From: Pseudomonadota bacterium
GTDB taxonomy: Bacteria > Pseudomonadota > Gammaproteobacteria > Acidiferrobacterales > UBA6901
Assembly: GCA_021785515.1 (NCBI GenBank)
Contig: JAJYEX010000001.1
Span: 372,001-436,000 of the forward strand
Length of the DNA stretch: 64,000 nt
Direction: 5' to 3'
The notes under the pieces are model-generated. The model was not told where the DNA came from, ran no database searches, and was given only the letters and a program-made list of their open reading frames with translations. Made by a program: the position numbers and the translations under genes. The stretch's first letter is position 1; every line of letters starts with the position of its first letter. Positions 22,173 through 26,880 of the stretch are shown one piece after another.

Positions 22173-24389
22173 TCACCTGGGCCGACTTCTGCGCTTGCCG
22201 CGACCCACCGGACTTCCCGGATTGAGATCGACCGGCCGTGCGGCAGGCACAGGACGCGACCCCGCCCTCACGTGCTGTGTGCCAAAAAGCAGACCCTTCC
22301 GGCCGGCTCCATGCCGGGACCCATGCCCTGTTCCCGACCGCACTTTGCCCGCACCGGACACCGGCTGATAAGCCGGCACCAGATGCTGCTTCCCGCTGCC
22401 GATCAGGTCGGCTCGCCCCATGCGACGCAATGCCTCACGCAACAACGGCCAATTGCCCGAATCGTGGTAACGCAAGAACGCCTTGTGCAGCCGACGCGCC
22501 TTGAGTCCTCTGGGAACCCGAACATCCTCGCTGGTGTACGTCACCTTGCGTAGTGGATTTTTTCCTGAATGATACATCGCCGTAGCCGTAGCCATGGGCG
22601 ACGGAAGAAAAGCCTGTACCTGGTCTGCGCGAAAACCGTTGCGCTTTAGCCATAAAGCGAGCTCCAGCATGTCCTGGTCAGTCGTGCCTGGATGGGCGGC
22701 TATGAAATAGGGAATGAGATACTGCTCCTTTCCGGCCGCCTCCGAGTAGCGGTCAAACATCTCCTTGAAGCGGTCGTAGGTCCCCATGCCGGGCTTCATC
22801 ATCTTGCTCAGCGGACCCTCACAGAGATGTTCAGGCGCGATCTTGAGGTAACCTCCGACATGATGGCTGACAAGTTCCTTGACATATTCGGGCGATTCGA
22901 TGGCAAGATCGTAGCGTACACCCGATGCGATCAGCACCTTCTTGATCCCCGGCACGGCACGCGCACGGCGGTACAGGCTGACCAACGGCGTATGATCGGT
23001 GTTGAGATTCTTGCAGATGACCGGATACACGCACGATGGCCGACGGCACGCGGCCTCAATGTCACGGCTACGGCAGTGCAGACGATACATGTTGGCAGTC
23101 GGTCCGCCCAGATCCGAAATGATCCCGGTAAAGCCGGGCACCGTATCGCGCACCATTCCTATTTCCCGGATCACCGATTCCTCCGACCGGTTCTGTATAA
23201 CCCGGCCCTCATGCTCGGTAATGGAACAGAAGGTGCAACCGCCAAAACATCCGCGCTGGATGGTAATGGAAAAGCGGATCATCTCATAGGCGGGAATGCG
23301 TGCGTCACCATAGACCGGATGCGGTTGCCGCGTATAAGGCAGCTCATATACCCGATCCATCTCCCGCGTCGACAAGGGCCAAGCGGGAGGATTGAGCCAT
23401 ACATCACGACCCCCATGACGCTGGACCAGTGCACGCGCGTTGCCTGGGTTCGACTCGGCATGCAGAATCCGCGAAGCATGCGCGTAGAGAACCGGGTCGC
23501 CAGAGACCTGATCAAAATCCGGCAGACGGATCACGCTGCGATCCCGGTCGACCGCCGCTGGACGGCGTTCGAACCGCAGCGGCATAGGCCCTGTGCCTGA
23601 CTGGGGGGCGCTGACTGTCTCTCTGGCGACGTACGGATTTTCGGGGACAACCGGCGCGCCCGGCAGATCGATATGGGTCGAATCGATTTCAAACCAACCC
23701 TCCGGAATATCCTTGCGCAGGAGGGCCGTTCCGCGGACATCGGTGATTGTGGCGATCTGTTCTTTGCGGGCAAGCCTGTGCGCGATCTCTACGATCTGCC
23801 GCTCCCCGTTTCCGTACACCAGCATATCCGCTTTCGAGTCCGCCAGAATGGAACGGCGCACCTTGTCGGACCAGTAATCATAGTGGGCGATGCGTCGCAG
23901 ACTGGCTTCTATGCCGCCGATGATGACTGGCACATCCCCATAGATCTCGCGCACCCGCTGGGTGTAGACAATCACTGCGCGATCCGGGCGTTTTCCGCCC
24001 TCGCCCCCGGGAGAATACGCGTCATCAGACCGGATCCGGCGGTCGGCCGTGTAGCGGTTGACCATGGAATCCATGTTTCCGGCGGTGACGCCAAAAAACA
24101 GATTCGGCCGCCCCAGCGCCGCAAAGTCCTCTCCGCTCCGCCAATTCGGCTGGGCGATGATGCCGACCCGAAATCCCTGGGCCTCGAGCAACCGTCCAAC
24201 GATCGCCATCCCGAAACTTGGATGATCAACATAGGCATCTCCAGTCACGATGATGACATCGCAGCTGTCCCAGCCGAGGGCCTCCATTTCGGCCCGCGAC
24301 ATCGCAAGCATCGGGGCGACGCCAAAGCGTGCCGCCCAGTATTTGCGGTACGAAAACAATTCGGGAGCGCAGACCATGAAATCCGGCAA
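22173..24389 (-). CDS. ygiQ: YgiQ family radical SAM protein
   Basis: 738 residues, the usual size. The N-terminal part ([24 protein letters not shown]) is the YgiQ N-domain, with a B12-binding-like fold in related proteins. The radical SAM cluster CFGGCTFC lies in the middle, preceded by FSITIQRG, and a YgiQ C-terminal domain follows (KNPLRKVTY). The last 70 residues are rich in Gly, Arg and Pro and probably disordered. The biochemical role is unknown in all organisms as far as I know. It has about 100 bases to the flavoprotein gene upstream and may be independently transcribed. Confidence 0.9.
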
Positions 24390-24491: not shown

Positions 24492-25508
24492 TTAGGATGC
24501 TACGGCGACATCCGTGCGCGCGAGCCGCCTACGTTCACGTCCGACAAACATGAACTCCAATGACCGGCGAACGACCCTACTGTCGCTTGTATATCTCGGG
24601 ATAGCGGCAAGCGAATACTCCGCGCCCGTCAAAATGGCATCCGCCGCCATGAGCCCGCTACGTACTGCCGGGCCAATACCCTCACAAAGATCACGGGTAG
24701 CGAGGCCCGCGGAATCACCCACGATGAACGCGTTGCCGATACGGCCTGCGCGCACTTCAGAACGCAGGTAGTAACTGTAACCCTTTGGGTCGAAGCTACC
24801 ATCGGGGACCAGTCCCGAGCGCCTCATGCGACGCACCAGCACGTCCCAGTGGCGCCAAATATCTTCACCGCGGTGTTTGAGCTGGCTGGCCATTCCACCT
24901 ATGCCGACGTTGAGATACCCGTCAGCCTTCGGCACATACCAGGAATATCCGGGAAATCCGCGCTCGAAAAACCAGAGATGACACCCGCGATCGTGATATT
25001 CATACGGAAATTCCTGTTCCAGAGTCACTGTCTGCAGTTCCTTGGCTCGCGGATTTGCTTGGCGGAACAGGTTGCGATAGACGGGGCACTTGGTGCCACC
25101 GGCACCGATCAGATACCGGGCACGATAGCGGTCATCAACGATGTAGTATTCCCCTTCTTTACGGATTTCCCGAACCGTGTGGGTGTCCACCGGAACTCCG
25201 GTACGTCTGACCAGCCACTCGTCAAATTCGAAGCGCCGGATCGAATGCTGCACACTGTTTACCCGGATACCAACGCCGTATATATGGAAATAGAGGCGAT
25301 CGAAGGAGAGAAAGCGGTGCGGATAGCTGCTAATGTCTATTTCCAGGTCACGCACAACCTCAGGCGTGATCCAGCCGGCACATAATTTGGTGCGCGGAAA
25401 ACTCTGGGCATCCACGATCCGGCAGTCGACTCCTTTTCTCGCCAGTTTCCAGGCGCAACTTGAACCGGCGGGCCCTCCGCCGACAATGAGCACCTCACTG
25501 GTTTCCAA
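24492..25508 (-). CDS. FAD-dependent oxidoreductase, geranylgeranyl-reductase-like
   Basis: 338 residues. A Rossmann FAD-binding motif GGGPAG sits at residues 9-14. The FPRTKLCAGWITP segment matches the substrate-loop region of the geranylgeranyl reductase family, and NAFIVGDSAGLATRDLCEGIGPA is the second FAD motif of that family. There is no membrane helix. Such enzymes reduce isoprenoid double bonds or oxidise/halogenate varied substrates. The gene begins 3 bases after the stop of a cyclopropane-synthase-like methyltransferase, so the substrate may be a lipid acyl chain modified by that enzyme. This functional link is inference from adjacency. Confidence 0.8.
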   Translation of the reverse strand: METSEVLIVGGGPAGSSCAWKLARKGVDCRIVDAQSFPRTKLCAGWITPEVVRDLEIDISSYPHRFLSFDRLYFHIYGVGIRVNSVQHSIRRFEFDEWLVRRTGVPVDTHTVREIRKEGEYYIVDDRYRARYLIGAGGTKCPVYRNLFRQANPRAKELQTVTLEQEFPYEYHDRGCHLWFFERGFPGYSWYVPKADGYLNVGIGGMASQLKHRGEDIWRHWDVLVRRMRRSGLVPDGSFDPKGYSYYLRSEVRAGRIGNAFIVGDSAGLATRDLCEGIGPAVRSGLMAADAILTGAEYSLAAIPRYTSDSRVVRRSLEFMFVGRERRRLARTDVAVAS

Positions 25509-25511
25509 GGC

Positions 25512-26834
25512 TCAGCTCTCGGTTCGTTCGGTGGCTGTATACAGATGATTGCGGGTCCATGGCACATCATTGTTGTCGCGTGACGCAAAAAGAATCTGGA
25601 ACAGCTGCATGTCTCCTACCCGAAAGGCCGCAATCGACCCAGCGAGGTAGAGCCGCCACGCGCGCACGAATGATACGTCAAACATGGCCATCACCCGGTC
25701 CGACGCCTTTTCGAACCTCCACAACCAGTGCTCCAGAGTACGGGCATAATGTAGTCGAAGGTTCTCGACGTCCAGTACCGAAAACTCGCTCGGCTCGAAT
25801 ATCTGCATCATCTCGGCCAGGGTCGCGGGATAGGCGCCCGGAAATATGCGCTTTTCAATCCAGGCATTCATCGGCTTCGGCCGATTACGTCCGATGGAGT
25901 GAATAAGGCCACGACCGCCGACCTTGAGACATTGATGAATGACATCGCCCAATTCCTGGTAATGCTCGACCCCGACATGCTCCAGCATGCCTACTGACAC
26001 AAACGCGTCGAATTCTCCGGAAATGTTGCGATAATCATCCTCGACATACTCGACGAGCCCCTCAAGGCCTTCGGCCTTGGCCCGTTCCCGTGCATACACG
26101 ATCTGCTCATGCGAGATATTGTAGGCCCTGATCTTAACGCCGTAATGTCGCGCCATATGGCGCGCGAGCGAACCCCACCCGCAACCGGCCTCGACCACCC
26201 GCTCTCCGGGATGCAGACGAAGCTTGCGGCAGACATGATCCATTTTTGCGACCTGCGCCTGCTCGAGCGTTGCGCCGGGACTGGCAAAATACGCGCAGGT
26301 ATAGACCATCTGCTCGTCCAGCCACAGTCGGTAGAAATCATTGCCGATGTCATAGTGTCTGTGAATATTGCTGCGGGACCCCGTCAGTGTGTTTGGCCGG
26401 GCCGGACGGGTGCGTGAAATCAGGCGCTGTGCCAGACCGCGAGGAGGTACGGCCGCGGATGCGTGATAGACGCACTCTAAGAACTCCACCAAGTCCCCTT
26501 CAACACGGACACGGCCGGACTCGTACAGATCGCCGAAATGGAGATCAGGATTGGCAATCAGGCGCAACAAAGCTGCGCGATCCGCAATAAAGACCCGGGC
26601 TACGCACGGATCCATGCCACCGGAAACTTCTTCACCGTTCCAGAGCAGAAAGCGGACCGGGGGCGCACCCATTGCCTTCAGCAACCACTTGAGCAGATAT
26701 CGGTCTATCTCGACAACCGGGCGCATGGAAAATTCATGCGGAGCTATTGCGCCGGACTGGACGTCCGCGTTGACTGCATGGGCACCGCCCGGAAATGACG
26801 AAACGTTGCACAATTCGGCTTTCTTCTTGTTCAT
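25512..26834 (-). CDS. Cyclopropane-fatty-acyl-phospholipid synthase family methyltransferase
   Basis: 440 residues from ATG 26834, 3 bases after GGTGGG. The SAM motif is VVEAGCGWGSLARHM. All catalytic residues known for E. coli Cfa have counterparts: Cys in YTCAYF, Glu in MLEHVG, His in IHSIG and Tyr in RLHYARTLEHW. The protein should therefore be an active methyltransferase on unsaturated phospholipid acyl chains. An N-terminal lipid-binding domain of about 150 residues precedes the catalytic domain. The downstream flavoprotein gene suggests a product other than plain cyclopropane, such as a methyl-branched chain; this is inference. Two hairpins lie just upstream of its start. Confidence 0.88.
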   Translation of the reverse strand: MNKKKAELCNVSSFPGGAHAVNADVQSGAIAPHEFSMRPVVEIDRYLLKWLLKAMGAPPVRFLLWNGEEVSGGMDPCVARVFIADRAALLRLIANPDLHFGDLYESGRVRVEGDLVEFLECVYHASAAVPPRGLAQRLISRTRPARPNTLTGSRSNIHRHYDIGNDFYRLWLDEQMVYTCAYFASPGATLEQAQVAKMDHVCRKLRLHPGERVVEAGCGWGSLARHMARHYGVKIRAYNISHEQIVYARERAKAEGLEGLVEYVEDDYRNISGEFDAFVSVGMLEHVGVEHYQELGDVIHQCLKVGGRGLIHSIGRNRPKPMNAWIEKRIFPGAYPATLAEMMQIFEPSEFSVLDVENLRLHYARTLEHWLWRFEKASDRVMAMFDVSFVRAWRLYLAGSIAAFRVGDMQLFQILFASRDNNDVPWTRNHLYTATERTES

Positions 26835-26870: not shown

Positions 26871-26880
26871 TTCCATCAGA

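Follow-up and report, generated by a model that had tools for sequence, protein, structure and literature searches.

Two adjacent open reading frames on the minus strand of the window (the whole 64,000-nucleotide stretch of DNA analyzed here) make up the locus, with a methyltransferase gene at 25512–26834 on the 5' side and a flavoprotein gene at 24492–25508 on the 3' side. The gap between them is exactly 3 bases (25509–25511, minus strand), as the first-pass annotation of this DNA had reported. The first gene encodes a Cfa-type (PF02353) SAM-dependent fatty-acyl methyltransferase of the clade referred to below as TmpB-type; read from the ATG at 26834 it has 440 residues, in agreement with the starts of its congeners (439–440 aa), and an alternative in-frame ATG lies at 26876. 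The second, opening with TTG, encodes a 338-residue flavoprotein built on the geranylgeranyl reductase (GGR) scaffold, a TmpA-like putative methylene-acyl reductase whose signature FPRTKLCAGW (residues 37–46; 25371–25400, minus strand, computed from the start at 25508) includes a putative catalytic cysteine, Cys43. A GAGAG at 25516–25520 (minus strand), within the end of the methyltransferase gene, could serve as a ribosome-binding site for the flavoprotein and suggests that its translation is coupled to that of the methyltransferase. No third gene was found to be conserved at the locus, be it an electron-donor gene or a UfaO-like gene. About 100 bases downstream of the flavoprotein lies a putative YgiQ-like radical SAM gene (22173–24389, minus strand; read from the translated reading frame), whose presence beside the pair is not conserved.

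The window methyltransferase scores 279 bits against PF02353 (CMAS; cut-off 27) and is a full-length CMAS/Cfa-family protein; other PF02353 matches in its genome reach at most 37 bits against 281, so that there is only one full-length Cfa-type protein. The Cys, Glu, His and Tyr that the first-pass annotation had recognized as counterparts of the E. coli Cfa active site do align: Cfa residues C139, E239, H266, I268 and Y317 correspond to C180, E285, H312, I314 and Y363, and in a 37-row alignment all of these are invariant save I314, which is almost so. This conservation is uninformative as to product, since retention of that same bicarbonate site was the criterion by which methylene-forming enzymes had been picked. 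Against the Cfa equivalogs NF053839 and NF008686, the window enzyme scores 332 and 270 bits, below the curated cut-offs of 600 and 400, respectively, and in the methyltransferase tree it falls within a 46-row TmpB-type clade (100/99) that leaves E. coli Cfa outside; reductase partners of every kind are interspersed within this clade. An E/R/H triad (E357, R360 and H362 in the window enzyme) is common to TmpB-type enzymes and BfaB, with H/G/D in the E. coli Cfa clade. As a marker of product this triad was rejected, for the solved Cfa-annotated chain 5z9o, which ranks second among PDB matches to the window methyltransferase, likewise has E-x-x-R-x-H.

The flavoprotein finds its best family in TIGR02032 (GG-red-SF, 1e-33), with 117 bits against a curated cut-off of 158.8; a longer relative, L011, scores 169 bits. 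It is of the PF01494/PF01266 type, and not of the FAD_binding_4 type to which the bfaAB reductase belongs. Its structure model (pLDDT 92) has GGRs as the nearest solved folds (Z 32.5 and 31.4), and the top fold matches comprise archaeal GGRs and a FixC-type (ETF-quinone oxidoreductase-like) protein, with Z from 32.5 to 31, such that the GGR-family character first proposed for this protein holds, albeit with a family score below cut-off. By alignment, Cys43 is the counterpart of Cys47 of the S. acidocaldarius GGR, a residue essential in that enzyme (PMC10821996). The motifs YxWxVP, RxxFD and IxGD are kept along with it, and Cys43 is among 49 invariant flavoprotein residues. In the flavoprotein tree, all methyltransferase-linked proteins group together in a single clade (99/93), with bacteriochlorophyll-type GGRs and the other relatives outside it. 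Nearly all of the linked proteins carry FPRxKxCAGW[IV]TP, where the other relatives shown have CGGG, CGGA, CGDG or CGEA. Two subtypes can be told apart, the window's (>50% identity, ~338 aa) and a longer one (31–38% identity, ~380 aa). The window genome holds two further GGR-family candidates that could serve isoprenoids.

The first-pass annotation had named, as an observation that would tell against the pair, a flavoprotein often found apart from the methyltransferase; the flavoprotein in fact almost always lies beside one. When GTDB genomes were scanned with no query but the flavoprotein, 80 loci came back at 52–83% identity, and 76 of them have a methyltransferase as the next gene on the 5' side in the same orientation, with gaps of −4 to 252 bases. 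Because only the flavoprotein was used as query, and yet 76 of the 80 loci have a methyltransferase immediately 5', the adjacency is not due to chance. The remaining four loci show a reversed order with overlapping genes (L085), divergent genes (L055), 665 intervening bases (L040) or a contig end (L106). At one locus of the survey, L109, a bacterial-type pair lies on a contig labeled Nanoarchaeota, which mis-binning or transfer probably explains. A search for the flavoprotein in plasmids found no tmp-type operon.

A second sample, of 369 evenly drawn Gammaproteobacteria genomes, gives a similar view. TmpB-type genomes were defined here by a gap in the methyltransferase profile score, with 47 genomes at 496 bits or more and the rest at 482 or less; with two genomes holding broken copies (G208, G186) they number 49. 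The flavoprotein, counting both subtypes, occurs in 39 of the 369 genomes: 36 of the 49 with a TmpB-type methyltransferase and 3 of the 320 without (Fisher p ~2e-35, a value that is only indicative, as are the no-overlap probabilities given below, since genomes are not independent samples). In the 38 flavoprotein genomes besides the window's, an adjacent methyltransferase is present in 33, four hold the flavoprotein without a linked methyltransferase, and one lay outside the check. Lone window-type flavoproteins are seen at L146 and L147. Two genomes with such a lone protein differ in that G293 has a TmpB-type enzyme elsewhere in the genome, while in G379 (94% complete) no TmpB-type methyltransferase was found.

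An indication of what the flavoprotein does comes from the genomes in which it is replaced. Among the 49 TmpB-type genomes, 36 have the GGR-like flavoprotein, 10 have a BfaA-like reductase, 3 have neither, and none has both; across the whole draw, too, the two proteins occur together in 0 of 369 genomes. For the 49, an overlap of zero has a probability of 3e-8 with genomes treated as independent, and of ~1e-5 when the counting is by family, with one shared family. No match to a BfaA-like protein was found in the window genome. The BfaA-like FAD_binding_4 reductase stands beside the methyltransferase in three genomes (L181, L183, L184) and elsewhere in the other seven, where six of the unlinked proteins are 64–73% identical to that of L181 and one (G219) is 37% identical. 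This gammaproteobacterial protein is 43.5% identical over its full length to one from Tsukamurella. The genes around the latter (recR, ybaB, an amidase, an SRPBCC protein, a methyltransferase and DNA polymerase III) agree with the bfaAB locus as published. With a Variovorax protein, likewise encoded after a methyltransferase, identity is 53%. In actinobacteria, BfaA, the implicated 10-methylene reductase, is required for the conversion of 10-methylene to 10-methyl stearate (PMC5660069, PMC7791843). That two unrelated flavoproteins fill one slot beside one methyltransferase type is as a shared methylene-reducing step predicts, and the complementary distribution supports, on new grounds, the view of TmpA as a methylene reductase. 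The TmpB-type genomes with neither reductase (L182, L186 and L185, i.e., G084, G229 and G339) possibly stop at a methylene end-product or use a third reductase; in G084 and G229 the FAD_binding_4 matches are at only 28–29%, and G339 is 72% complete.

Partners are exchanged on the methyltransferase side as well. The trees of both proteins place one flavoprotein clade beside TmpB-type, Cfa-clade and BfaB-sister methyltransferases. At six loci (L040, L041, L096, L101, L109, L115), from KSB1, Ignavibacteriales and some Gammaproteobacteria, a window-type flavoprotein accompanies a Cfa-clade methyltransferase 48–55% identical to E. coli Cfa. L159 and L160 each pair a divergent member of the same flavoprotein clade with a short methyltransferase (296 aa), which falls with actinobacterial BfaB and not TmpB; these genomes have a TmpB-type methyltransferase too, on another contig.

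The first-pass annotation held that known lipid pathways of this kind use different flavoprotein families. That statement was incomplete, as the tmpBA ("ten methyl palmitate") operon, described in 2021, already pairs a Cfa-like methyltransferase with a GGR-like flavoprotein, in Marinobacter hydrocarbonoclasticus, Thiohalospira halophila and Desulfobacter (PMC7791843). Four of five tmpBA operons yielded 10-methylene palmitate in E. coli, and TmpA, which resembles archaeal GGRs, was active in neither aerobic E. coli nor yeast (PMC7791843). The window pair is thus real and widespread, an operon of a kind already on record, here in a new organism. The literature yielded no demonstration of the reductase step of the proteobacterial route, nor did our search of it turn up fatty acid data for named hosts of the window-type pair. 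Thiocapsa marina and Thioalkalivibrio sulfidiphilus ALJ17 are among these hosts.

We read the pair, with a probability of roughly 0.8, as an operon of the tmpBA type, in which a methyltransferase is followed by a GGR-scaffold reductase and which serves to make fatty acids with a mid-chain methyl branch. The methyltransferase would use SAM to methylate a monounsaturated acyl chain of a phospholipid at its double bond; the substrate is by analogy probably 16:1 delta-9, and a 10-methylene chain would result. The flavoprotein would then take this chain into a hydrophobic cavity beside its FAD and reduce the exocyclic double bond to give the saturated 10-methyl chain, doing the job of the unrelated FAD_binding_4 enzyme BfaA of actinobacteria. 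The window flavoprotein is most likely, then, a methylene reductase, and the product, judged by analogy as are the substrate and the methyl position, is most likely a mid-chain methyl-branched phospholipid acyl chain of the 10-methyl C16 type. The pairing, the complementarity with BfaA-like reductases and the 10-methylene products of tmpBA all support the initial suggestion that a methyltransferase and a redox enzyme here make a methyl-branched or otherwise altered chain. Counted against the tmpBA-type reading are the failure of every TmpA tested so far to reduce the methylene chain in aerobic E. coli or yeast (PMC7791843), the flavoprotein's scores below curated GGR cut-offs, the lone flavoproteins in four genomes, and, in some lineages, flavoprotein neighbors with 48–55% identity to the cyclopropane-forming E. 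coli Cfa.

It seems quite unlikely that the methyltransferase is an ordinary cyclopropane synthase with an unrelated flavoprotein for a neighbor, one that saturates, for example, a quinone or isoprenoid side chain. While PF02353 membership, a retained Cfa active site and a scaffold shared with isoprenoid reductases are what such an arrangement would have, the pairing is near-obligate over unrelated lineages, the flavoprotein is distributed in complement to BfaA-like reductases, and the methyltransferase clade is separate from Cfa; moreover, operons of the same architecture have published 10-methylene products, and isoprenoids could be served by the two other GGR-family candidates in the window genome. 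The UfaM/UfaD/UfaO route leads to a methylated diene or furan fatty acid by way of an oxidase/desaturase step. Less probable again is that the flavoprotein acts in this manner on the methylated chain, for what it replaces is a reductase (BfaA-like) and not a desaturase, its motifs and scaffold are those of an ene-reductase, and a third, UfaO-like gene is not conserved at the locus. In favor of such chemistry is that a Cfa-related methyltransferase and a redox enzyme also make furan fatty acids (PMC7380195).

The least probable of the alternatives has the pair ending at the 10-methylene chain, with a flavoprotein that is inactive, regulatory or protective. As this would require, methylene chains were all that the tested operons made in aerobic hosts (PMC7791843); the retention of a flavoprotein with 49 invariant residues, Cys43 included, argues otherwise. 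So, judged by its fatty acids, may Thioalkalivibrio versutus, which contains saturated 10-Me-C16:0 together with 10-Me-C16:1, where T. nitratis has neither (PMC8092127).

Returning to the tmpBA-type reading, the interest of the pair lies in its reductase step, newly supported by the complementary distribution. About an even bet, in our estimation, is the broader proposal that CAGW-signature GGR-scaffold flavoproteins form a second class of acyl-methylene reductase, one that evolved independently of BfaA, has been exchanged with it in evolution and draws electrons from quinol, ferredoxin or ETF and not NADPH. Such a donor would explain the inactivity of TmpA in aerobic heterologous hosts. Given their complementary distribution, swapping the GGR-like and BfaA-like proteins offers a direct test of the reductase step. 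FPRxKxCAGW[IV]TP serves to find further genes of the putative GGR-like reductase, which would be a second enzyme for making branched oils. In sediments and sulfate reducers, 10-methyl C16 acids serve as lipid markers.

How the two proteins stand relative to known systems may be set out as follows. With the archaeal GGRs of S. acidocaldarius (3atq) and T. acidophilum (3oz2), the flavoprotein has in common the fold (Z 31–32), the catalytic cysteine and the motifs YxWx(F/V)P, RxxFD and (L/I)xGD, but identity is only ~20%, CAGW follows the FPRxK stretch, the C-terminus is shorter and, unlike in these GGRs, there is linkage to a fatty-acyl methyltransferase. E. coli Cfa shares its catalytic domain and bicarbonate-site residues with the window methyltransferase, at ~40% identity over 259 residues, and belongs to a separate clade. 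The tmpBA operons resemble the window pair in having the methyltransferase first and the flavoprotein second, the former Cfa-like with the bicarbonate site and the latter GGR-like and not BfaA-like; this likeness is one of gene order and families, the tested TmpB and TmpA being compared by description, and subtypes of ~338 and ~380 aa exist. The actinobacterial bfaAB system, too, combines a Cfa-like methyltransferase (~38% identical to the window's) with an FAD reductase, and the same two reactions are proposed, although its gene order is reversed and its reductase belongs to FAD_binding_4 (PF01565), a family unrelated to the GGR scaffold of the window flavoprotein. It is nonetheless BfaA-like enzymes that take the place of the GGR-like protein beside the same type of methyltransferase.
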